The notes under the pieces are model-generated. The model made no database searches, was not told the origin of the DNA, and saw nothing but the letters and a program-made list of their open reading frames with translations. Positions 39,962 to 50,829 of a stretch of DNA of 64,000 nt are shown one piece after another. The position numbers and the translations under genes were made by a program. How positions within the stretch are numbered: the stretch's first letter is position 1; each line of letters begins with the position of its first letter. The DNA lies in contig PWFH01000031.1 in NCBI GenBank assembly GCA_003553795.1, positions 1-64,000 on the forward strand. The letters run 5' to 3'. This DNA is from Egibacter sp. GTDB lineage: Bacteria; Actinomycetota; Nitriliruptoria; Euzebyales; Egibacteraceae.

Positions 39962-40130
39962 TGTACGTTGCCCTCGCCGTAGTGGACGGGAAGCCGGTGG
40001 GAATCCGGCGCGGTCCTCGCCACTGTGAGCGGGTAGCGCGACGCCAGCGCGCCACTGGGTGACCAGCCCGGGAAGGCGGCGTCCGTAGCGATGATCCGCG
40101 AGCCAGGAGACCGGCTACGGCCCCAGCCAC
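39962..40130 (+). ncRNA. Cobalamin (AdoCbl) riboswitch
   Basis: The leader contains the diagnostic core: GGGAAGCCGGTGGGAATCCGG followed by CGCGGTCCTCGCCACTGTGA, and further downstream the B12-box region AGCCAGGAGACCGGC (40101-40115). The order and spacing match actinobacterial cobalamin riboswitches. It lies directly upstream of the substrate-binding protein of a corrinoid importer, so it should lower importer expression when cobalamin is plentiful. I could not fix the transcription start; TGTACGTT near 39962-39969 may be a -10 element. The exact boundaries are approximate. Confidence 0.92.
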
Positions 40131-40131
40131 A

Positions 40132-40150
40132 TTCCTCGAGGTAAGGAAGG
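40132..40150 (+). promoter_or_regulatory. Candidate ribosome-site hairpin after the B12 riboswitch
   Basis: TTCCT (40132-40136) can pair with AGGAA (40144-40148), which forms part of the ribosome site AAGGAAGG for GTG 40156. It sits just after the B12-box, so ligand binding could control translation by freeing or hiding the site. A rho-independent terminator is not evident here. Confidence 0.5.
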
Positions 40151-40155
40151 TCACC

Positions 40156-41472
40156 GTGACCCTCGCTTCGCGCACCCGCGCATTCCTCCTGCTCCTCGTC
40201 GCCGCGCTCGCGCTCGCCGCGTGCGCCGACGACGTCGAGGAGGCCGCCGACGAGCCCGACGACACGACCGAGGACGCCGAGGACGACGAGCCCGACGACG
40301 AGCCCGCCGACGAGCCCGACGGCGACGCCGATGGCGAGCCCGCCGCGCTCGAGGCCAACCTCACCGACCGCTGCGCCGAGGAGGACGAGGCCGACCTCGA
40401 TCTCTTCCCCGAGCAGGCGAGCTTCGAGCACGCCGAGCGCGTCGACGTGCGCTACCACGACCACTACAAGGTCGTCGAGGTCACGACGACCTTCACCGAC
40501 GAGCCCGTGACCTTCGTGCTCCTGCAGTGCGGCGCCGAGCCGCCCGAGCTCGACGGCGACCTCGCCGAGGCCCCGGTCATCGAGGTCCCCGTCGAGGAGG
40601 CCGTGACGCTCACGACCGTCAACGTCGCGCACTTCGACGCCCTCGACGCCGTCGACCGCCTCGTCGGCGTCGGCACGACGGACTTCGTCACCACCGCGTC
40701 GGTGCGCGAGCGCATCGACGCCGGGGAGGTCGAGGGCTACGGCACGCCCGAGGGCCCGCCCGACGCCGAGCGGCTCATCGCCGCCAGCCCCGACGTCGCC
40801 GTCCTCGACGCCTTCGGCGACAGCGTGCTCGACGACGTCGCCCTGCTCGGCGACGCCGAGGTCGACGTCCTGCTCAACGCCGACTTCGACGAGCCCGCTC
40901 CCCTCGGGCGCGCCGAGTGGCTGAAGGTCACCGCCCTGCTGCTCAACCGCGAGGCGGACGCCGAGGCGCTGTTCGACGAGATCGCCGCGGAGTACGACGC
41001 CGTGGTCGCGGCCGTGGCCGACGTCGAGGACCGCCCGCGGGGGCTCCTCGACGAGCCGTTCGAGGGCACGTGGTTCGCCCCTGGCGGAGAGAGCCTCACC
41101 GCGACGCTCATCGACGACGCCGGCGGCGACTACGTCTTCGCCGACGACGACGCGACGGGCTCGCTGGCCTTCGACATCGAGACCGTGCTCGACGAGGGCG
41201 CCGACGCCGACGTCTGGCTGCTGGGCTCGGTCATGGCCTCCTTCGAGGAGCTCCTCGCGCAGGACGAGCGCCTCACGGAGATCGCCGCGGTCGGCGACGA
41301 CGCGGTGTGGGCCGGGGACGCGGGGACCTCACCGGAGGGCGGCAACCCCCGCTTCGAGCGCGCGCCGCTGCGCGCCGACGAGCTGCTCGCCGACGTCGCG
41401 ACGATCCTCCACCCCGACCTCGTCGAGCACGAGCTCAGGTACTACCGCCCGGTGGGTGAGGGCGCGCAATGA
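40156..41472 (+). CDS. Corrinoid ABC transporter substrate-binding lipoprotein (BtuF-like)
   Basis: This 438-residue lipoprotein has a lipobox LAAC with Cys23, an Asp/Glu/Pro linker to about residue 70 and a class III PBP fold. Signature blocks are TTVNVAHFDALDAVDRLVGVG, SPDVAVLDAFGDS and AEWLKVTALLLNREADAE. Proteins of this fold bind B12 or iron chelates; the riboswitch and the adjacent permease point to corrinoids. The GTG at 40156 follows AAGGAAGG. It is longer than E. coli BtuF (about 270 residues), partly because of the linker and an extended C-terminus. Confidence 0.88.
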   Translation: MTLASRTRAFLLLLVAALALAACADDVEEAADEPDDTTEDAEDDEPDDEPADEPDGDADGEPAALEANLTDRCAEEDEADLDLFPEQASFEHAERVDVRYHDHYKVVEVTTTFTDEPVTFVLLQCGAEPPELDGDLAEAPVIEVPVEEAVTLTTVNVAHFDALDAVDRLVGVGTTDFVTTASVRERIDAGEVEGYGTPEGPPDAERLIAASPDVAVLDAFGDSVLDDVALLGDAEVDVLLNADFDEPAPLGRAEWLKVTALLLNREADAEALFDEIAAEYDAVVAAVADVEDRPRGLLDEPFEGTWFAPGGESLTATLIDDAGGDYVFADDDATGSLAFDIETVLDEGADADVWLLGSVMASFEELLAQDERLTEIAAVGDDAVWAGDAGTSPEGGNPRFERAPLRADELLADVATILHPDLVEHELRYYRPVGEGAQ

Positions 41473-42602
41473 CCGCCGACGCTCCCGCTCGCCCGCGGCG
41501 GGAGCGCGTCGGAACGCCGGCCCTCGAGCCTGACGCCCCAGCGCCTCCCACCGACCGTCCCGGACGGACGACCGCCGGGATGGTCGCCCTCGCCCTGGTC
41601 TGCGCCGCGCTCTTCCTCGCCACCCTCGCCCTGGGGTCGGTGCGGCTGCCGCTGGGTGAGGTGCTCGCGGTGCTCACCGGCAGCGGGGCCGGCGACAGCA
41701 CCCAGCTCATCGTCGAGCAGGTCCGCCTACCCCGGGCGGTGACCGCGCTCATCGCCGGCGCCGCGCTCGGCCTCGGCGGGCTGCAGATGCAGACGCTCTT
41801 CCGCAACCCCCTCGCCGACCCGTTCATCCTCGGCATCAGCGCCGGTGCGAGCCTCGGGGTGGCCCTCGTCGTGCTCGCCGGCGGCTCGGGCGGGGCGATG
41901 CTCGCGCTGGGGCTCGGCCTGGCCGGCGGCGCGGCGATCACCGCGGCGGCGGCCACCGGCGCGCTCGCGGTCACCCTGCTCGTCCTCGCCGCCTCACGCC
42001 GCGTCGAGAGCCCCGCCACGGTGCTCATCATCGGGCTCATGGTCGGCTACGCGGTCACCGCGGTGGTCAGCGTCCTCGTCCAGGGGGGCTTCGGGGAGCT
42101 CGAGCGGGTCCGCGCCTTCGTCGCCTGGGGCTTCGGCAGCTTCGCGGGAACCTCGTGGAGCGACCTCGTCGTGCTCTCGGCCACCGTCGCCGTCGGCCTC
42201 GCGATCGGCGTCGCGACGATGAAGGCGCTCAACGCCCTGCTGCTCGGTGACGCCTACGCCGCGTCGATGGGCGTGCGGGTGCGGGGCGTGCGCGTCCTCG
42301 TCGTCGTCAGCGCCTCACTGCTCGCCGGCGCGGTCACGGCCTTCTGCGGACCGATCGCCTTCATCGGCGTGGCCTCCCCGCACCTCGCGCGCGGTCTGCT
42401 GCGCAGCTCCGACCACCGGGTCCTGCTGCCGGCGACGCTGCTCGTCGGCGCCGCGGTCGCCCTCGCCGCCGGGCTCGTCGCCCAATTGCCGGGGCAGGAC
42501 GCGACCCTGCCGCTGAACTCCGTGACCGCGCTCGTGGGCGCGCCGGTCGTCGTCGCCGTGCTCCTGCGGCTGCGACGCTCGAGCCGGGCGGTGGTCACAT
42601 GA
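41469..42602 (+). CDS. Corrinoid ABC transporter permease (BtuC/FecCD family)
   Basis: This 377-residue permease has about ten helices and the FecCD motifs LPRAVTALIAGAALGLGG, MQTLFRNPLADPFILGISAGAS and, before the last helices, CGPIAFIGVASPHLARGL. Its N-terminal 35 residues are a Pro/Arg-rich cytoplasmic leader. The ATG at 41469 overlaps the binding-protein stop by 4 bp. It probably works as a homodimer with the ATPase from the next gene. Confidence 0.92.
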   Translation: MTADAPARPRRERVGTPALEPDAPAPPTDRPGRTTAGMVALALVCAALFLATLALGSVRLPLGEVLAVLTGSGAGDSTQLIVEQVRLPRAVTALIAGAALGLGGLQMQTLFRNPLADPFILGISAGASLGVALVVLAGGSGGAMLALGLGLAGGAAITAAAATGALAVTLLVLAASRRVESPATVLIIGLMVGYAVTAVVSVLVQGGFGELERVRAFVAWGFGSFAGTSWSDLVVLSATVAVGLAIGVATMKALNALLLGDAYAASMGVRVRGVRVLVVVSASLLAGAVTAFCGPIAFIGVASPHLARGLLRSSDHRVLLPATLLVGAAVALAAGLVAQLPGQDATLPLNSVTALVGAPVVVAVLLRLRRSSRAVVT

Positions 42603-43720
42603 GCGTGACCGAGGCCCGCCCGGGTCCCGGCGGCCCGGCTCCCCGACCCTGCGGCAACGGCGTCCACCCCGACGCCCCGCCCGAGCGGGTGCTGTCGGCG
42701 CGGGGGCTCGCCGTCGGCTACCGCCAGCGCCGCCGGATCGCGCCGGTGCTCTCGGGGCTCGACCTCGACCTGCGCATCGGCCAGCTCACCTGTCTGCTCG
42801 GCGCCAACGGCACCGGCAAGACGACGCTGCTGCGCACCCTGTCGGGCTCGCTGCCCCCGCTGGGCGGCACGGTCTGCCTCGGCGAGGCCGACCTCACCGC
42901 GCTGTCCCCCGCCGACCGTGCACAACGGCTCGCGGTCGTGCTCACGAGCCGCGTCGACCCCGGCCTCCTGCGCGTCGGGGACCTCGTCGCCCTCGGCCGC
43001 CATCCCTACACCGGCTGGAACGGTCGGCTGCGCGCGGCCGACCACGAGGCGATCGACTGGGCGCTCGAGGCCAGCGGTGCCGCAGCCTTGCGGGCGCGCC
43101 CGGTCCTCGAGCTCTCCGACGGCGAGCGCCAACGGGTGATGATCGCCCGCGCGCTCGCGCAGGAGCCCGAGATCCTCATGCTCGACGAGCCGACGGCCTT
43201 CGTCGACCTGCCCCGACGCCTCGAGCTCGCCGGCCTGCTGACCCGCCTCGCCAGGGAGTGCGGCCTCGCGGTGCTGCTCACGAGCCACGACCTCGACCTC
43301 GCGCTGCGCAGCGCCGACGAGGTGTGGCTGCTCGGCCGCGGTGACCGAGACGCCGACCGACGCGTGGCCAGCGGCGCCCCCGAGGACCTCGCGCTCTCCG
43401 GCGCGCTCGCGGAGGCCTTCGACACCGACACCGTGCGCTACGACCTCGCCCGCGGGCGCTTCGAGGCCGACGGGGCCCCCGCCCCGCGCGTCCACGTCGA
43501 CGGCGAGGGCCCCGAGGCGCGGTGGACCACCCACGCCATCGAGCGGGCCGGCTTCGCGCCAGCCTCCGGCGCGCCAGCACGCCTGCGCGTGGCCGTCGAG
43601 CCCGGGCCGACCTGGCGGCTCGACGACGGCCAGGCCTCACGACACCACCGCACCCTCGCCGACCTCGTCACCGACCTCCGCTCACGGGAGGGGCAGCGCA
43701 CCGCCCATCAACCGAACTGA
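42599..43720 (+). CDS. Corrinoid ABC transporter ATPase (BtuD-like) with C-terminal extension
   Basis: This 373-residue ATPase has Walker A GANGTGKTT, a signature LSDGERQRVMIARAL, Walker B ILMLDEPTAFVD and the H-loop LLTSHDLD. Beyond the normal 260-residue domain it carries an extra roughly 110 residues (AEAFDTDTVRYDLARGRFEAD and onward) that resemble extensions of some FecE-type ATPases. The ATG overlaps the permease stop by 4 bp. A 225-bp gap (43721-43945) then separates it from the dehalogenase genes; it holds a weak 6-bp hairpin (CGGGGG 43823-43828 with CCCCCG 43834-43839). Confidence 0.9.
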   Translation: MSVTEARPGPGGPAPRPCGNGVHPDAPPERVLSARGLAVGYRQRRRIAPVLSGLDLDLRIGQLTCLLGANGTGKTTLLRTLSGSLPPLGGTVCLGEADLTALSPADRAQRLAVVLTSRVDPGLLRVGDLVALGRHPYTGWNGRLRAADHEAIDWALEASGAAALRARPVLELSDGERQRVMIARALAQEPEILMLDEPTAFVDLPRRLELAGLLTRLARECGLAVLLTSHDLDLALRSADEVWLLGRGDRDADRRVASGAPEDLALSGALAEAFDTDTVRYDLARGRFEADGAPAPRVHVDGEGPEARWTTHAIERAGFAPASGAPARLRVAVEPGPTWRLDDGQASRHHRTLADLVTDLRSREGQRTAHQPN

Positions 43721-43945
43721 AGCCGCAGGACCGTACAACCTGGGCTACCCCCACCCCCGGCGGTAGACCCCGAAGGCCCGTTGCCATTCGGGCCGTCCGG
43801 CCCTGCGACCGTGCCCATTCACCGGGGGTGGCGCCCCCGCGGAGCCCTTACGGTGCCGCCAGCCAGCTGAAAGACGGGTGCCAGGAGCGAGGGCACTCGA
43901 CGAGGGCAGCTGGGCACGGTCGGGTCGCATCGCCGCGACGCAGGG

Positions 43946-45094
43946 ATGGCCAGCGGCATGAGCACGAACCCCCACACCAGCGATTGGCTCGCGCGCCTCG
44001 AGCGCACCGGGGTCGACACCGAGGCGCTCGGCGGCACCGAGGAGGCCCGGCAGGCCCTCGCGGCGGCGCTGGCCGACCACGACGTCCTCGAGCCGGCGCC
44101 CGGCGGCCGAGCGCGCCTCGCCCCAGGCCTCGCCGAGGTCCTCGAGCGCGGCATCGCCGAGGCCGCGACCCACGATGCCGGCGCCCTGGCCGAGGCTCTC
44201 CGCGCGGGGCTCGACTGCCCGGAGGAGGAGGCCGAGCACCTCCTGCTGCACTGGGCGAGCCCGGTCCGCGTCGCCGCGGCGACGGTGACCGGCTCGCGCC
44301 TGTCCGCGCCGAGCGCGGTCGTCCTGCCCGCCGCCGAGCTCGTCGCGCGCCTGTGGCTGCTGCCCTGGCTCGATGCCGTCGTCGAGCCCGGTGAGGGTCC
44401 TGGGGAGGCCGCGGTCGACCCGGAGCGCCTCCTCGAGCTCATGCTCGCCAGCGGCACGCTGCGTGAGCAGGCCGTCGAGGACGAGACCGTCCTCGACCTC
44501 ACCCCGGCGTTCCTCGCCGCGCGGGCGCTGCGGCAGCAGCAGGCGCGCGGGTGGCGGGCCGCCGAGCGCCGCGCCCGGCTCGGCGAGCTGCTCAACCTCG
44601 ACGGCGAGGCCCTGTCGGAGGGCTACCGCCTCGCCGGCTCCGGCCGCACCCTCGGGGAGCTGCTCGCGCTGCACCAGCTCACCGCCCTCAGCGACCTCGG
44701 CCTGTGGACCGGCTGGCAGACCCTGGCCTCCTTCGCCCGACCCTTCCAGCCCGTGGGCGAGGCCGACCTCGAGGCGTGGAGCCACGGCGAGGTCCTGCTG
44801 CTCGTGAGCTCGCCCTCCTCACGGCCCGCCCAGGCGATGGAGGAGCTGCTCACCGAGGCGCTGCGCAGCGTCGACGTGCCCGTGGGGGTCATCAACGCCG
44901 ACGACGAGCGCGCCCTGTGCGAGCGACTCGACGTCGACCGGCCACCGATGGTGCTCCTGCGGCGCGCCGGACGGACCGTCGACCGCATCCGCTGGGCCCA
45001 CACCCCCGTCGAGCTGCGCGACCGCATCGAGCGGTTCCTCGACGACCCTCCCGAGGACACGACGGCGGAGGAGCCGAGCCGCCATGCGATCTGA
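43946..45094 (+). CDS. Unknown protein with thioredoxin-fold C-terminus, dehalogenase locus
   Basis: I do not recognise this 382-residue cytoplasmic protein as a named family. Its N-terminal three-quarters are helical and acidic. The last about 100 residues read like a thioredoxin fold: a strand (VLLLVSSPSSRPAQAM) where the redox CxxC would lie, VGVINADDERALCERLDV, a cis-Pro-like RPPMVLLRRAG and a last helix. The CxxC is replaced by SPSSR, so it is not a redox enzyme of the usual kind. It lies 56 bp upstream of the dehalogenase, so it may be a folding, cofactor-insertion or Tat-proofreading chaperone. ATG 43958 is an alternative start. Confidence 0.7.
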   Translation: MASGMSTNPHTSDWLARLERTGVDTEALGGTEEARQALAAALADHDVLEPAPGGRARLAPGLAEVLERGIAEAATHDAGALAEALRAGLDCPEEEAEHLLLHWASPVRVAAATVTGSRLSAPSAVVLPAAELVARLWLLPWLDAVVEPGEGPGEAAVDPERLLELMLASGTLREQAVEDETVLDLTPAFLAARALRQQQARGWRAAERRARLGELLNLDGEALSEGYRLAGSGRTLGELLALHQLTALSDLGLWTGWQTLASFARPFQPVGEADLEAWSHGEVLLLVSSPSSRPAQAMEELLTEALRSVDVPVGVINADDERALCERLDVDRPPMVLLRRAGRTVDRIRWAHTPVELRDRIERFLDDPPEDTTAEEPSRHAI

Positions 45095-45150
45095 CCCCCG
45101 ACGCCAGCCCACGTGCCCACGACCCGACCGCGCCGACCCAGGAGCCTGTG

Positions 45151-46608
45151 ATGAGTGACCGCACGACCGACCGCAAGGGCGAGGCCCCCGCCGAGGCGCG
45201 GGGCGTCTCGCGCCGGGACTTCTTCAAGCTCACGGGGGCGACCGCCGGCGCGGCGGTGGCCACCGGCGCGGCCGCGAAGGGCGGCCGCAGCCAGGCCTTC
45301 GCCCAGGCCGCGAACGACGCCGCCGACCCCAGCCCCGACGCGCCGATCCACAAGCGTCCCTGGTGGGTCCGGGAGGTCGACGAGCCGACGACCGAGATCG
45401 ACTGGGGTGAGAAGGTCCGGATCAGCGAACGCGACCAGACCGTCCGCGGCCCCGGACTCGCCGGCTACGTCGGCGAAGCGCGTGTCGAGCACATTGGCGA
45501 GATCTCCGCGGAGAACAAGATCGAGCGCATCCGCGCCGACGAGCCCGGCTACCGCCTGCGCGACTGGGCGCTCAACGCCGCCAACGGCCAGGGCTCGCGC
45601 GTGCCGATGAGCTTCATCGGACCGCAGACGGTCGACTCACCCGACGACCTCGGGGTGCCCCGCTGGGAGGGCACGCCGTCGGAGAACGCGAACATGGTGC
45701 GCGCGGCGCTACGGCACATGGGCGCGGCGACCGTCGGCTTCGTCGAGCTCGACGAGGACACCACCGAGAAGCTCCTCTACTCCCAGGACCCCGACGGCAA
45801 GATGGTCGAGATCGAGGATGTCGAGGAGGCCTACGAGGACGACGACAAGCGCGTCATCCCGAGCACGGCCCGTTGGGTCATCGTCTACACCGTGCAGATG
45901 TCCGAGGAGACGATGCGGCTGTCCCCGGCGCCCATCGGCGGCCAGACGACCGGCATCGCCTACGCGAGGTTCACCCAGATCCAGGCCATGATGCAGGAGT
46001 TCATGCATGGCATCGGCTGGCAGTGCCTCGGGGAGTCGACGATCAACGCCCTCGGGATCTCCCCCGCCTTCGGGGTCATGGCCGGCCTCGGGGAGATGGG
46101 GCGGTTCAACCGCATGATCACCCCGGAGTTCGGGCCGATGGTCAGGGTCTTCAAGCTCGTCACCGATCTCCCCCTCGAGCCGACGAAGCCCATCGACGCC
46201 GGCATCCAGGAGTTCTGCAAGAGCTGCGCGCTGTGCGCCGAGGCCTGCCCGTCGGACTCGCTGAGCTACGAGCCCGAGCCGTTCTGGGAGCCGGTGGGCG
46301 AGTGGAACAACTTCGGCCACAAGGCCTGGTTCGAGAACGCCGTGACCTGCATGGAGTACTGGCGCACCGGCCCCGGCACGAACTGCGGGATCTGCTTCTC
46401 CGTCTGCCCCTACGCCAAGAAGGACGAGACGTTCATGCACACCCTCGTCAAGGGTGTCTCGGCGAGGACCGGGCTGTTCAACGGCATGTTCACCGCGATG
46501 GACCAGGCCTTCGGCTACGGCGAGGGTCGCGATCCCGACGAGTGGTGGAACCTCGACCTGCCCGAGTACGGCATCGACACCCAGCGCACCGCGACGGTGC
46601 AGGCCTAG
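45151..46608 (+). CDS. rdhA: Reductive dehalogenase catalytic subunit (RdhA), Tat-exported
   Basis: This 485-residue enzyme has a Tat signal (SRRDFFKLTGATAGAA, Arg21-Arg22) and two ferredoxin-type cluster motifs: Cys356-x2-Cys359-x2-Cys362-x3-Cys366-Pro and Cys400-x11-Cys412-x2-Cys415-x3-Cys419-Pro, the pattern for two 4Fe-4S clusters. The corrinoid domain keeps GLGEMGRFNRMITPEFGPMVRVFKLVTDLPL-type sequence (MAGLGEMGRFNRM, TPEFGPMVRVF) and Tyr271 in GIAYARFT, a candidate proton donor. It should cleave carbon-halogen bonds using B12. QueG was rejected because QueG is cytoplasmic and lacks a Tat signal. The nearby riboswitch-controlled B12 importer fits a corrinoid enzyme. Confidence 0.92.
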   Translation: MSDRTTDRKGEAPAEARGVSRRDFFKLTGATAGAAVATGAAAKGGRSQAFAQAANDAADPSPDAPIHKRPWWVREVDEPTTEIDWGEKVRISERDQTVRGPGLAGYVGEARVEHIGEISAENKIERIRADEPGYRLRDWALNAANGQGSRVPMSFIGPQTVDSPDDLGVPRWEGTPSENANMVRAALRHMGAATVGFVELDEDTTEKLLYSQDPDGKMVEIEDVEEAYEDDDKRVIPSTARWVIVYTVQMSEETMRLSPAPIGGQTTGIAYARFTQIQAMMQEFMHGIGWQCLGESTINALGISPAFGVMAGLGEMGRFNRMITPEFGPMVRVFKLVTDLPLEPTKPIDAGIQEFCKSCALCAEACPSDSLSYEPEPFWEPVGEWNNFGHKAWFENAVTCMEYWRTGPGTNCGICFSVCPYAKKDETFMHTLVKGVSARTGLFNGMFTAMDQAFGYGEGRDPDEWWNLDLPEYGIDTQRTATVQA

Positions 46609-46641
46609 CGCCGCCCCCACGACCCGAGGAGGTCGAAGCAC

Positions 46642-46971
46642 ATGCTGTGGTTCATCATCGGCATCATCGTCGGGGCCGGCGGGCTCTGGCTCGTCCAGCG
46701 CACGCGTGACCCCGAGGTCACCACGACCTGGTACGGCTGGGTGGTGGGCGTCCTCGGCGCGCTGCTCATCCTGCTCTCCATCGAGGCCTTCACCGGCTCG
46801 CTCGCCGAGTCCGAGCCGCAGGCGGCGTGGATGAGCCTGCTCACGCTCGGGCTGCCAGGGCTCATCCTCGCCCTCCTGGCGTGGTGGCTGCCCGGCCGCA
46901 GCGGCAAGGACGAAGCGGAGTCCTCGCCCGAGACCGACGACGCCCCCGACGCCGAGCACGCGGCGCTCTAG
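46642..46971 (+). CDS. RdhB-like membrane anchor
   Basis: This 109-residue protein has three hydrophobic helices (about residues 2-18, 31-50 and 68-87) with short loops and a charged C-terminal tail. That size and topology match RdhB anchors that hold the exported dehalogenase at the membrane; WYGWVVGVLGALLILLSIE is its middle helix. It starts 33 bp after rdhA with GAGGAGG. RdhB proteins are poorly conserved, so assignment relies on position and topology. Confidence 0.75.
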   Translation: MLWFIIGIIVGAGGLWLVQRTRDPEVTTTWYGWVVGVLGALLILLSIEAFTGSLAESEPQAAWMSLLTLGLPGLILALLAWWLPGRSGKDEAESSPETDDAPDAEHAAL

Positions 46972-46990
46972 CGGCACCGCCGCGGGCCAC

Positions 46991-47024
46991 GCGCCGGCCG
47001 TGCCCCACGAGGCGCGGCCGGCGC
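46991..47024 (+). terminator. Hairpin between rdhB-like and reductase genes
   Basis: Nine-base arms GCGCCGGCC (46991-46999) and GGCCGGCGC (47016-47024) flank a 16-nt loop. There is no U-tract. It could partly terminate or protect the message and set the rdhAB-to-reductase ratio. Confidence 0.5.
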
Positions 47025-47081
47025 TCCATGTCACCGGCTGAGCGTCGGGGCCCGCGGGAGCCCGGACCGAAGGACGAACGG

Positions 47082-48395
47082 ATGACCCTTGCCCTGCGAG
47101 GCGTGATGTGGGCGGGCGTCTACGTCGCCGCGATCGCCGCGCCCCTGTTCTTCGTGCTCATCGGCGCGCCCGAGGGCCGGGGCTGGTGGGCGGACCTGTC
47201 GATGGCCCTCGGCTTCATCGCCATGGCGATGCTCGGCCTCCAGCTCGTCGTCACCGCCCGGCTGCCACAGGTGGAGGCGCCGTTCGGCCTCGACGTCGTC
47301 CTGCAGTACCACCGCCAGATCTCCTACGTCATCCTCGCCTTCGTCCTCCTGCATCCGGCGATGCTCATGGTGCAGGACCCCTCGCTGCTGCGGCTGCTCA
47401 ACCCCGCGACCGCGACGACCGCGGCGCTGTGGGGACTGGCCTCGGTCGCGCTGCTGCTCGTCCTGCTGGCCCTGTCGATCTGGCGCACTCGCCTCGGCCT
47501 GTCCTACGAGGTCTGGCGGGTCAGCCACGGGCTGCTCGCGATCGGCGTCGTGGCCACCGCCTTCGTCCACATCGAGCGGGTCGGCTACTACGTCTCCGGG
47601 CCGCTGGCCCGCGCGGTGTGGTTCGCGGTGGCCGCCGGGCTCATCGGCGCGCTGGCCTACGTCCGGCTCGTCAAGCCGCTCAGGCGCCGCAAGCGGCCCT
47701 ACCGCGTCACCGCGGTCACCGCGCAGCCGTGCGAGGCCTGGAGCCTCGGCGTCGAGCCCGACGGTCACCGCGGCCTGCGCTTCCTGCCCGGGCAGTTCGC
47801 CTGGCTGACGATCGGCCGCAGCCCCTTCTCGGTCAAGGAGCACCCGTTCTCGTTCTCCTCGGCGGCCACCGACCCCTCGCGGCTCGAGTTCACGATCAAG
47901 GCCCTCGGCGACGACACCGCGCGGATCGGCGAGGTCGAGCCCGGCACGCGGGTCTACCTCGACGGGCCCTACGGGGCGTTCAGCTACACCCGCAGCGAGG
48001 CCGCGGGCTTCGTCTTCCTCGCCGGCGGGGTCGGCGTCACCCCGATCATGAGCATGCTCCGCACCCTCGCCGACCTCGAGGACCAACGGCCCATGCACCT
48101 GCTCTACGCCTGCCGCAGCGAGGCCGACCTCCTCTTCGGTGACGATCTCGACGGCCTCGCCGAGCGGCTCGACCTGTCGATCACCATCGTGCTCGAGCAC
48201 CCCAGCGACGAGTGGAGGGGTCCACGCGGGGTCATCACCCCCGAGCTCCTCGACGAGCGGCTGCCCGCACGCCCGCGCCGCTACGCCTACTTCCTCTGCG
48301 GCCCCCCGGCGATGATGGACGCCCTCGAGGCCGACCTCGCCGCCCGCAAGATCCCCCCCGAGCGGATCAACCTCGAGCGCTTCGACCTCATCTAG
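47082..48395 (+). CDS. Membrane NAD(P)H flavocytochrome b reductase (ferric-reductase/FRE family)
   Basis: This 437-residue protein has six helices with two pairs of heme-ligand histidines spaced identically, His77-x13-His91 (YHRQISYVILAFVLLHP) and His149-x13-His163 (SHGLLAIGVVATAFVH). These place two b hemes across the membrane, as in Nox/ferric reductases. The cytoplasmic half has the FAD motif HPFSFSS, the nicotinamide motif AGGVGVTPIMSML and LCGPPAMMDALEADL. Electrons would flow from NAD(P)H through FAD and two hemes to the outer face. ATG 47082 follows AGGAC; ATG 47028 is an alternative start. It is the likely donor for the dehalogenase. Confidence 0.9.
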   Translation: MTLALRGVMWAGVYVAAIAAPLFFVLIGAPEGRGWWADLSMALGFIAMAMLGLQLVVTARLPQVEAPFGLDVVLQYHRQISYVILAFVLLHPAMLMVQDPSLLRLLNPATATTAALWGLASVALLLVLLALSIWRTRLGLSYEVWRVSHGLLAIGVVATAFVHIERVGYYVSGPLARAVWFAVAAGLIGALAYVRLVKPLRRRKRPYRVTAVTAQPCEAWSLGVEPDGHRGLRFLPGQFAWLTIGRSPFSVKEHPFSFSSAATDPSRLEFTIKALGDDTARIGEVEPGTRVYLDGPYGAFSYTRSEAAGFVFLAGGVGVTPIMSMLRTLADLEDQRPMHLLYACRSEADLLFGDDLDGLAERLDLSITIVLEHPSDEWRGPRGVITPELLDERLPARPRRYAYFLCGPPAMMDALEADLAARKIPPERINLERFDLI

Positions 48396-48410
48396 CCCCC
48401 AGGAGAGCCC

Positions 48411-48800
48411 GTGCGCCAGGCCTTCGCCACCCGCCTCGTCCGCAGCGTGACCGTCGCGCTGCTCGCCCTCGCGGGCCTCTTCGCCCTGCTCGCCAACGCC
48501 ACCGGCGCGGGCCGGGTCGACGAGGTGCTCGGCCTCGACGCCGACCACGAGCGCGGCGAGGCGCTCTACATGGAGGTCACCAACCCGACGTGCGCCTCGT
48601 GCCACTCGCTGTCCCACGCCGGCGCGGAGTCGATCATCGCCTCAGACCTCGACGAGACCCAGCCCAGCGCCCGGGTGACCGTGCAGTCGCTCATCGGCGG
48701 CACGACGCCGGAGCACGACCGCGAGGGCTACCGCCACGACCTCTCGAACCAGGACCTCGCCGACCTCGCCCGCTACATCGAGGCCGTCGCCGGCGAGTGA
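48411..48800 (+). CDS. Small monoheme cytochrome c, membrane-tethered or secreted
   Basis: This 129-residue protein has a signal or anchor helix (TVALLALAGLFALLANA) and one heme-attachment motif, Cys61-Ala-Ser-Cys-His65. No methionine follows the heme motif, so the usual class I sixth ligand is missing; His residues in SLSHAGAE and TPEHDREGYRHDLS are possible replacements. The C-terminal LADLARYIEAVAGE is a class I-like last helix. The GTG at 48411 follows AGGAG, 15 bp after the reductase stop. It may carry electrons from the reductase to RdhA. Confidence 0.88.
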   Translation: MRQAFATRLVRSVTVALLALAGLFALLANATGAGRVDEVLGLDADHERGEALYMEVTNPTCASCHSLSHAGAESIIASDLDETQPSARVTVQSLIGGTTPEHDREGYRHDLSNQDLADLARYIEAVAGE

Positions 48801-48905
48801 GGCCCCGGGCCGACGCCGGCCAGCGAGCCCCCGGGCCGACGCCTCGGCCGCCGCGGGTCTCCGAGCCCACGCTCCACGCGGGCCCCTGCCGGGCATGGAC
48901 GCGCG

Positions 48906-48939
48906 AGTTACCCGCCGGTAACCTTACCGGCGGGTAACT
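48906..48939. promoter_or_regulatory. 34-bp palindromic operator upstream of acyl-CoA dehydrogenase
   Basis: Sixteen-base arms AGTTACCCGCCGGTAA (48906-48921) and TTACCGGCGGGTAACT (48924-48939) are perfectly inverted around CC. Each arm is itself a near-palindrome TTACC-N4-GGTAA. The site lies about 70 bp ahead of the ATG at 49009. TetR-type lipid regulators in Actinobacteria use TTAC/GTAA-containing palindromes, so a repressor of fatty-acid genes is plausible. The rest of the 48801-49008 gap shows nothing clear. Confidence 0.8.
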
Positions 48940-49008
48940 TCACGGAGCACCGGCGCGAGGGACGGCAGTGCCCTGCCGACGCTCCCCGGCGCGGCACAGG
49001 AGCAGGCG

Positions 49009-50829
49009 ATGACCCACTACCGGAGCAACCTCCGCGACATCCAGTTCAACCTCTTCGAGGTCCTCGGCACCCACGAGCGCTTCGGCAGCGGGCCCTACCG
49101 GCAGATGGACCGCGACAGCGCCGAGGCCGTGCTCGAGGAGATCGAGCGCCTGGCCCGCGAGGACTTCGCCGCGAGCTTCGTCGAGGGCGACCGCGTCCCC
49201 CTCGAGCTCGCCGACGGCGACGTCGCGATCCCCGAGGGGACCAAGCGCAGCCTCGACGCCTACTTCGGCGGCGGCTGGGAGGGCCTGACCCTGCCGGAGT
49301 CCCTCGGCGGCCTCGGCGCGCCGAAGAGCCTGTCGTGGGCGGCGCAGTCGATGCTGCTCGGCGCGAACCCCGCAGCGTTCATGTACGCCGCCGGGCCGTT
49401 CTTCGCGGCGATCACCGAGGAGCTCGCCACCGACGAGCAGCGCGAGCGCTGGGTGCGCCCGTGGGTCGAGCGGCGCTGGGGCGGGACGATGGTGCTCACC
49501 GAGCCCGACGCCGGCTCCGACGTCGGCGCCGGGCGCACGAAGGCCGTCGACAACGGCGACGGCACCTGGTCGATCACCGGGGTGAAGCGCTTCATCACCA
49601 ACGGCGACTTCGACTGGCCGGAGAACATCCTCCACCTCGTCCTCGCCCGCCCCGAGGGCCACGGCCCGGGCACGAAGGGCCTGTCGCTCTTCCTCGTGCC
49701 GAAGCACTGGGTCGAGCCCGACGGCTCCCTCGGCGAGCGCAACCCCGTCAGCGCCACCGCCGTCGAGGACAAGATGGGGCTCAAGGCCTCCTCGACCTGC
49801 GAGATGACCTTCGAGGACGCCCGCGGGGTGCTCGTCGGCGAGGTCCACGACGGCATCCGCCAGATGTTCAAGGTCATCGAGTACGCGCGGATGATGGTCG
49901 GCACGAAGGCCATCGAGACACTGTCGACGGGCTACCTCAACGCCCTCGACTACGCCAAGGAGCGGGTCCAGGGGGCCGACCTCACCCAGGCGGCGGACAA
50001 GACCGCCCCGCGGGTCGAGATCATCCGCCACCCCGACGTCCGCCGGATGCTCATGGCCCAGAAGGCCCACGTCGAGGGCATGCGCGCGCTCGTGCTCTAC
50101 ACCGCCTCGATCCAGGACGAGATCGAGATCCTCGAGGAGGCGGGGCAGTCCGGCGGCGAGGCGCACACCGCCGCGGTCAAGCGCAACGACCTCCTCCTGC
50201 CGCTCGTGAAGGGCTACGGCTCGGAGAAGAGCTACGAGCTGCTGTCGCTGTCGCTGCAGGTCCTCGGCGGCTCGGGCTACATCCGCGACTACCCCATCGA
50301 GCAGTACATCCGCGACGCGAAGATCGACACCCTCTACGAGGGCACGACCGGCATCCAGGGTCAGGACCTCTTCTTCCGCAAGATCGGCAAGGACCAGGGC
50401 GCGACGCTGACCGCCCTGCTCACCGAGGTCGCCGAGTTCGCCAAGGGCGACGGCGGAGGGGGCGCGCTCGCCGCCGAGCGGGCCCGCCTGGCCGCCGCCC
50501 TCGAGGACGTCCAGGGCATGCTCGGCTCGATGGTCGGCTTCTTCGGCCACGAGTCCGGCAAGGGCATCTACCTCGTCGGGCTCAACACCACCGAGTTCCT
50601 CTCGTCGCTCTCAGAGCTCGTCATCGGCTGGCTGCTCCTGCGCCACGCCGAGGTCGCGCTCGCCGCCCTCGGGCAGGATCCCAGCGAGCGCGACCGCGCG
50701 TTCTACGAGGGCAAGGTCGCCGCGGCCCGCTGGTTCGCCGGGCGGGTCCTGCCGCAGCTGTCGACGCGCCGGGAGATCCTCGCGAGCACCGACATGGAGC
50801 TCATGGACCTCGACGACCGGGCCCTCTGA
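49009..50829 (+). CDS. Acyl-CoA dehydrogenase (long, C-terminally extended)
   Basis: This 606-residue flavoenzyme catalyses the first step of beta-oxidation. FAD and substrate blocks are MVLTEPDAGSDVGAG, WSITGVKRFITNGD and KMGLKASSTCEMTFED. The catalytic glutamate is in IDTLYEGTTGIQGQD, as in medium- and very-long-chain enzymes of the AcdH C-terminal-domain group. The last about 130 residues form the extra helical domain of the 600-residue family. It is preceded by the 34-bp palindrome and seems to be transcribed alone. Chain-length specificity is unknown. Confidence 0.93.
   Translation: MTHYRSNLRDIQFNLFEVLGTHERFGSGPYRQMDRDSAEAVLEEIERLAREDFAASFVEGDRVPLELADGDVAIPEGTKRSLDAYFGGGWEGLTLPESLGGLGAPKSLSWAAQSMLLGANPAAFMYAAGPFFAAITEELATDEQRERWVRPWVERRWGGTMVLTEPDAGSDVGAGRTKAVDNGDGTWSITGVKRFITNGDFDWPENILHLVLARPEGHGPGTKGLSLFLVPKHWVEPDGSLGERNPVSATAVEDKMGLKASSTCEMTFEDARGVLVGEVHDGIRQMFKVIEYARMMVGTKAIETLSTGYLNALDYAKERVQGADLTQAADKTAPRVEIIRHPDVRRMLMAQKAHVEGMRALVLYTASIQDEIEILEEAGQSGGEAHTAAVKRNDLLLPLVKGYGSEKSYELLSLSLQVLGGSGYIRDYPIEQYIRDAKIDTLYEGTTGIQGQDLFFRKIGKDQGATLTALLTEVAEFAKGDGGGGALAAERARLAAALEDVQGMLGSMVGFFGHESGKGIYLVGLNTTEFLSSLSELVIGWLLLRHAEVALAALGQDPSERDRAFYEGKVAAARWFAGRVLPQLSTRREILASTDMELMDLDDRAL

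Follow-up and report, generated by a model that had tools for sequence, protein, structure and literature searches.

A five-gene block that combines an exported reductive dehalogenase with a flavocytochrome of the NOX/FRE type was found in a member of the Nitriliruptoria (Egibacter sp., contig PWFH01000031.1, positions 1 to 64,000; this whole stretch of 64,000 nucleotides is hereafter called the window). The block, OrfU-rdhA-rdhB-reductase-cytochrome c, occupies 43946-48800, with all genes on the + strand, in a source genome of 3.13 Mb that is distributed over 231 contigs and is 96.5% complete. We tentatively propose, at close to an even chance, that the encoded proteins make up a chain running from NAD(P)H over FAD, two b hemes and cytochrome c to RdhAB, in which the reductase would help to feed RdhA. 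The block and its direct neighbours are the following:

40156..43720, + strand: btuF-btuC-btuD, corrinoid uptake; left neighbour, not part of the block; also resident in block-less relatives
43946..45094, + strand: OrfU, 382 aa; opens the block, without a match in Pfam or NCBIfam
45151..46608, + strand: RdhA, predicted exported reductive dehalogenase catalytic subunit (TIGR02486, PceA match, motifs)
46642..46971, + strand: RdhB-like membrane anchor, 109 aa, with ExE motif, adjoining rdhA
47082..48395, + strand: NOX/FRE-type flavocytochrome (Pfam, alignment, AlphaFold2, Foldseek)
48411..48800, + strand: CytC, monoheme cytochrome c; hydrophobic N-terminus, heme motif CASCH not followed by any Met, conserved His102
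49009..50829, + strand: acyl-CoA dehydrogenase; lies to the right of the block, also resident in relatives

The open frame of the reductase (437 aa) matches the Pfam families Ferric_reduct (PF01794, 8.2e-17), FAD_binding_8 (PF08022, 2.3e-5) and NAD_binding_1 (PF00175, 3e-20). It contains two His-x13-His pairs, H77/H91 and H149/H163. In an alignment of the window protein with 46 others (29-72% identical to it), H77, H149 and H163 never vary and H91 is at least 90% conserved, as are H254, P255 and S257 of the FAD motif and G316, G318, P321 and G407 of the nucleotide and CGP motifs. Such conservation over 47 sequences is more than chance would give. The AlphaFold2 model (pLDDT 89.8, pTM 0.86) has six membrane-length helices (3-27, 35-57, 70-98, 113-133, 142-167 and 174-203), of which the third and the fifth carry the His pairs, and an FNR-type domain follows the helices. 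The best Foldseek matches to the model are structures of SpNOX, the NADPH oxidase of Streptococcus pneumoniae (8qta, E 5.3e-22; 8qt6, E 1.7e-21, TM 0.84 by target), and the two proteins also match in sequence, over residues 44-420 (E 4.8e-18). With bis-His pairs spaced 12-14 apart in membrane helices, a six-helix fold and a fused FAD/NAD(P)H domain, the reductase is a member of the NOX/FRE superfamily, and its predicted function is the oxidation of NAD(P)H with an acceptor on the outside. SpNOX (8QT6/8QQ7) has the same six helices, two bis-His hemes and fused FAD/NAD(P)H domain, but the identity is 20% (Foldseek) and for SpNOX no exported partner enzyme is known, whereas the reductase adjoins a cytochrome c and rdhAB.

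The gene of that cytochrome c begins 15 bases 3' of the reductase stop. The Met distal ligand of class I Met/His cytochromes c (SorU type) was not found in CytC and its homologues: in all four sequences (window, L003, L026 and G326) no Met follows CxxCH, and a His is conserved at exactly +41 from the first Cys of this motif. The Met-Pro of SorU aligns to Glu101-His102 of the window protein. The ligand pattern suggests a His/His-ligated heme, which would have a low potential. Two genomes that lack RdhA share the pattern, which is thus no adaptation to RdhA.

RdhA itself reaches 295.8 bits against TIGR02486 and matches PceA (4uqu) with an E of 3.9e-49. It carries the Tat motif RRDFF and both 4Fe-4S motifs, and its Tyr271, Asn299 and Arg332 fall at active-site positions of PceA in the alignment. 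The RdhB-like protein aligns with the ORF 3' of rdhA on the Dehalococcoides plasmid pDhc6, and likewise on a Sulfurospirillum plasmid. Judged by its sequence features (Tat motif, two 4Fe-4S motifs, the Tyr and Arg of PceA and an ExE anchor beside rdhA), RdhAB is predicted to be of the exported respiratory type. An initial annotation, made from the DNA letters, had described two His-x13-His pairs, intact FAD and NAD(P)H motifs and a neighbouring exported RdhA, and each of these readings agrees with the domain matches, the alignments and the model. The first gene of the block, OrfU, occurs in 2 of the 66 genomes of the class, both of them bearing rdhA. Its C-terminus is thioredoxin-like in look but without CxxC, and the model is of low confidence (pLDDT 51.9), with a fold too poor for use; OrfU is perhaps a maturation helper of RdhA.

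The same gene order, OrfU-RdhA-RdhB-reductase-CytC, was found in a Nitriliruptorales MAG of another genus (SLAO01000071.1; the second carrier, G403), with identities to the window proteins of 60.5, 75.5, 60.9, 71.5 and 69.2%, respectively. Within the family (21 genomes) RdhA, OrfU, CytC and a full-length orthologue of the reductase are confined to these two genomes, and several further family genomes contain only weaker matches, at ~30% identity. The neighbouring acyl-CoA dehydrogenase gene is present in 13 of the 21 genomes, and in none of the 11 besides the two carriers is the block found in its surroundings. In four of them, G118, G194, G151 and G129, btuD and the acyl-CoA dehydrogenase gene are immediate neighbours; two small ORFs separate the two genes in G140, and other genes or no btu genes lie by the acyl-CoA dehydrogenase gene in G402, G226, G401, G258, G400 and G269. 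The direct junction in four relatives implies that the five genes form one unit, gained or lost as a whole, and the borders of the block are located at 43720-43946 and 48800-49009. Membership of btuFCD in the block was rejected, as btuFCD precedes the acyl-CoA dehydrogenase gene in five block-less relatives, directly in four of them.

In a tree of the acyl-CoA dehydrogenase the source genome pairs with the block-less G118 (98/98) and G403 with the block-less G402 (99/98); G118 is a single contig (95% complete), and G402 and G403 are 69% and 64% complete. Synonymous divergence between the carriers is 0.48-0.94 for the block genes, comparable to the flanking gene (0.49) or higher, and the dN/dS of all five block genes, 0.23-0.50 (NG86, rough at this GC), indicates purifying selection. 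Because block-less sisters occur in the tree and the synonymous divergence is similar to that of the flank or exceeds it, the data fit, given vertical descent, an ancestral presence of the block and its loss as a whole; transfer of the block between lineages is still a conceivable alternative. A recent foreign island was rejected on base composition: the GC content of the block (0.69-0.77) is near that of the flanks and the window mean (0.746). Shared ancestry explains part of the conserved order, since this order reaches the next resident genes. A gene-order baseline for the two carriers, of little power (61 stretches, ~600 kb of the 2.1 Mb of G403), gave matches to the suf cluster, a single regulator and the contig of the block, and to nothing else.

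Starting from the computed fold, ligands, block structure, all-or-none inheritance and CytC ligand pattern, we infer the direction of electron flow, the low potential of CytC, the transfer to RdhA and the energetics. The SpNOX-like reductase would take electrons from cytosolic NAD(P)H via FAD, and its two stacked b hemes would carry them to the outer side of the membrane, where the anchored CytC, probably His/His-ligated and of low potential, would accept them and pass them on to the RdhA that is exported via Tat and anchored by RdhB. The outward flow would spend energy, and RdhA would accordingly be an electron sink or a detoxifying enzyme rather than part of a proton-pumping respiration. Electrons that move outward follow the membrane potential, and NAD(P)H could in this way exceed its midpoint and reach centres that are too negative for menaquinol. 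It is possible, though we regard it as somewhat doubtful, that this is a Gram-positive dehalogenation system whose NOX-type flavocytochrome and His/His monoheme cytochrome c let the membrane potential push NAD(P)H electrons across the membrane, so that they reach an exported corrinoid dehalogenase without passing the quinone pool.

The separate steps of this chain have counterparts in known systems. MsrP, for example, is Tat-exported. This periplasmic protein is fed by MsrQ (PMC5676040, in the available part of the text), so that in MsrPQ, as in the proposed system, a heme-b membrane protein of the ferric reductase superfamily feeds an exported reductase. MsrQ, however, lacks a fused flavin domain and passes its electrons to a molybdoenzyme; in the window protein the flavin domain is fused, and the genes alongside encode a cytochrome c and a corrinoid enzyme. 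Direct reduction of cytochrome c under anaerobic conditions is described for SpNOX (PMC11564096, in part). NADPH is the electron donor, as in the proposed route, of the cytosolic, self-sufficient RdhA of the NpRdhA type (PMC10463259, PMC10624902), which differs in that its reductase is soluble and fused and in that it is not exported (4ras alignment and the available parts of the same two papers).

The all-or-none occurrence of the block with rdhAB in the family, together with the absence of an FMN_bind protein (RdhC/PceC type) from both carrier genomes in a search whose control was positive in 4 of 14, supports a local recruitment of the reductase as donor of RdhA, gene order being no proof of electron transfer. 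The missing FMN_bind protein weighs little, since many organohalide respirers lack pceC (PMC10624902, in excerpt). The donor role is also weakened by the occurrence of the block in two genomes only, one of them 64% complete, and by the reductase homologues, which usually stand alone and seldom share a genome with rdhA. Moreover, RdhA and RdhB keep some menaquinone-pocket residues of PceA2B2, so that an extra donor may be unneeded.

This last point leads to the main rival, which we consider unlikely but of some weight: RdhAB would work as a menaquinol:organohalide oxidoreductase, as PceA2B2 does in Desulfitobacterium, and the reductase and CytC would be auxiliary, re-activating oxidised corrinoid or clusters or serving the redox balance. 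Like PceA2B2 (8Q4H), the window proteins consist of an RdhA and an RdhB anchor and share its catalytic and cluster residues; the pocket residues K489, H495, D515 and Y520 of DhPceA (8q4h) correspond to K, H, D and Y in the window RdhA, R499 is replaced by K (alignment), and the ExE motif of RdhB is kept. The same K, H, D and Y are, however, present in the RdhA of the Dehalococcoides plasmid (alignment), and the available part of the paper that lists the pocket residues of PceA2B2 reports some of them as conserved in quinone-free organisms as well (PMC10624902). PceA2B2 differs in that its electrons enter from menaquinol and its complex contains neither an NAD(P)H flavocytochrome nor a cytochrome c, and a menaquinol-fed RdhAB leaves unexplained why a full chain from NAD(P)H to the outside is inherited together with rdhAB. 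The potentials are given as ~-75 mV for menaquinol and ~-350 to -360 mV for the cobalt of RdhA, a transfer that is described, in the available parts of both papers, as unfavourable or debated (PMC7031245, PMC10624902).

The wider distribution of the reductase bears on a second rival. Relatives were found at 29 loci in many phyla (scan of genome contigs), and rdhA (E up to 1e-10) is present in 2 of 28 genomes with a homologue (L003-L030, leaving out L031, a weak partial match), namely the Nitriliruptorales record named above and a Deferrisomatales genome, the latter with rdhA on contigs other than that of the reductase. A full-length relative (E < 1e-90) occurs in 16 of the 66 genomes of the class, and no relative of RdhA, RdhB, OrfU or CytC was found near the reductase in 15 same-class stretches (L092-L106, from 14 genomes and one fragment). 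Five reductase genes were found in 2 genomes of an Acidimicrobiia sample (247 genomes), one of them with CytC beside it and none with RdhA nearby, and the reductase lies near rdhA in 0 of 35 rdhA stretches of Desulfobacterota (3 to 18 kb, E 1e-4). In the reductase tree, the window protein and L003 are sisters (100/100) inside a seven-row clade of the class (99/93), with G326 next (93/67). The reductase is a general-use gene of the class, in a clade of mostly stand-alone genes, and a family dedicated to RdhA was rejected on the genome and Desulfobacterota counts. The reductase might then be a general exporter of electrons to iron chelates, oxygen or other periplasmic acceptors, with a position in the block that is historical. 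The stand-alone homologues in many phyla, the tree position and the several acceptors that SpNOX uses in vitro (PMC11564096, in part) speak for this reading, which is nonetheless improbable to us: genomes of the family have the full-length gene only where rdhA is present (2/21 genomes), and it is absent from the block-less complete G118.

The initial annotation had proposed the reductase as a donor to RdhA, and had named homologues lying mostly away from rdhA and cytochrome genes as an observation that would speak against this. For the family of reductases at large such is indeed the distribution, as the genome, Desulfobacterota and L092-L106 counts make clear. The donor proposal is partly supported: it retains the all-or-none block with rdhAB and the lack of FMN_bind in the carriers, and loses ground with the homologues found mostly elsewhere. 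The accompanying statement that such reductases feed iron or oxygen in other organisms was too narrow, as it omits MsrQ-MsrP and the reduction of cytochrome c by SpNOX (available parts of PMC5676040 and PMC11564096).

The reductase and CytC lie side by side without rdhA in L026 (Acidimicrobiales), and in G326 CytC is on a different contig from the reductase; neither protein thus depends on RdhA. They constitute an actinobacterial pair that is independent of RdhA elsewhere and has here been built into the five-gene dehalogenase block. That the pair serves another exported acceptor, encoded elsewhere in the genome, with RdhA as a passenger, is very improbable, for although the pair in L026 and the reductases with a Met-type cytochrome c in L011, L012, L014 and L028 would agree with it, the pair is within the family inherited together with rdhAB and OrfU or not at all, which speaks against it.

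A second type of pair, a reductase followed by a ~180-aa monoheme cytochrome c of the Met type, was observed in Desulfuromonadales, Sumerlaeia and a Comamonas-labelled genome. The cytochrome c genes directly after the reductase are:

L011:9310-9858: Met-type cytochrome c
L012:3806-4351: Met-type cytochrome c
L014:9328-9867: Met-type cytochrome c
L028:9248-9811: Met-type cytochrome c

Three paralogues of the reductase are present in G446 (Acidimicrobiales; L152, L153 and L154), where a cytochrome c gene lies beside one only and another paralogue directly follows a thioredoxin gene.

At E 0.001, a search of the phylum for RdhA gave matches in 78 of 396 genomes, and apart from that of the source genome none reaches 67 bits. 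These lower matches lie mostly over the 4Fe-4S part and in a few cases over an N-terminal stretch, and were treated as non-RdhA as a group, not one by one. No relative of RdhA was found in viral contigs.

In the open-licence literature no link was found described between a reductive dehalogenase and a flavocytochrome of the ferric reductase/NADPH oxidase type, and the Nitriliruptoria are not named among the matches listed there. The arrangement of reductase, CytC and RdhAB is apparently a new combination of component kinds that are already known. How low-potential electrons reach an exported RdhA is under open debate, and a quinone-independent route from NAD(P)H would, if true, add a third solution to those by menaquinol and by the hydrogenase supercomplex. 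The five block genes are movable and can be tested singly.

Finally, two regulatory elements were observed beside the block. A cobalamin riboswitch (RF00174, 103.5 bits) is located at 39963-40133 on the + strand, 5' of btuFCD, and the dehalogenase block, downstream on the same strand, might share the corrinoid control. At 48906-48939, in front of the acyl-CoA dehydrogenase gene, a perfect inverted repeat with 16-base arms was found. It is probably a repressor site of that gene, since similar TTAC...GTAA repeats precede the acyl-CoA dehydrogenase gene in relatives both with and without the block.
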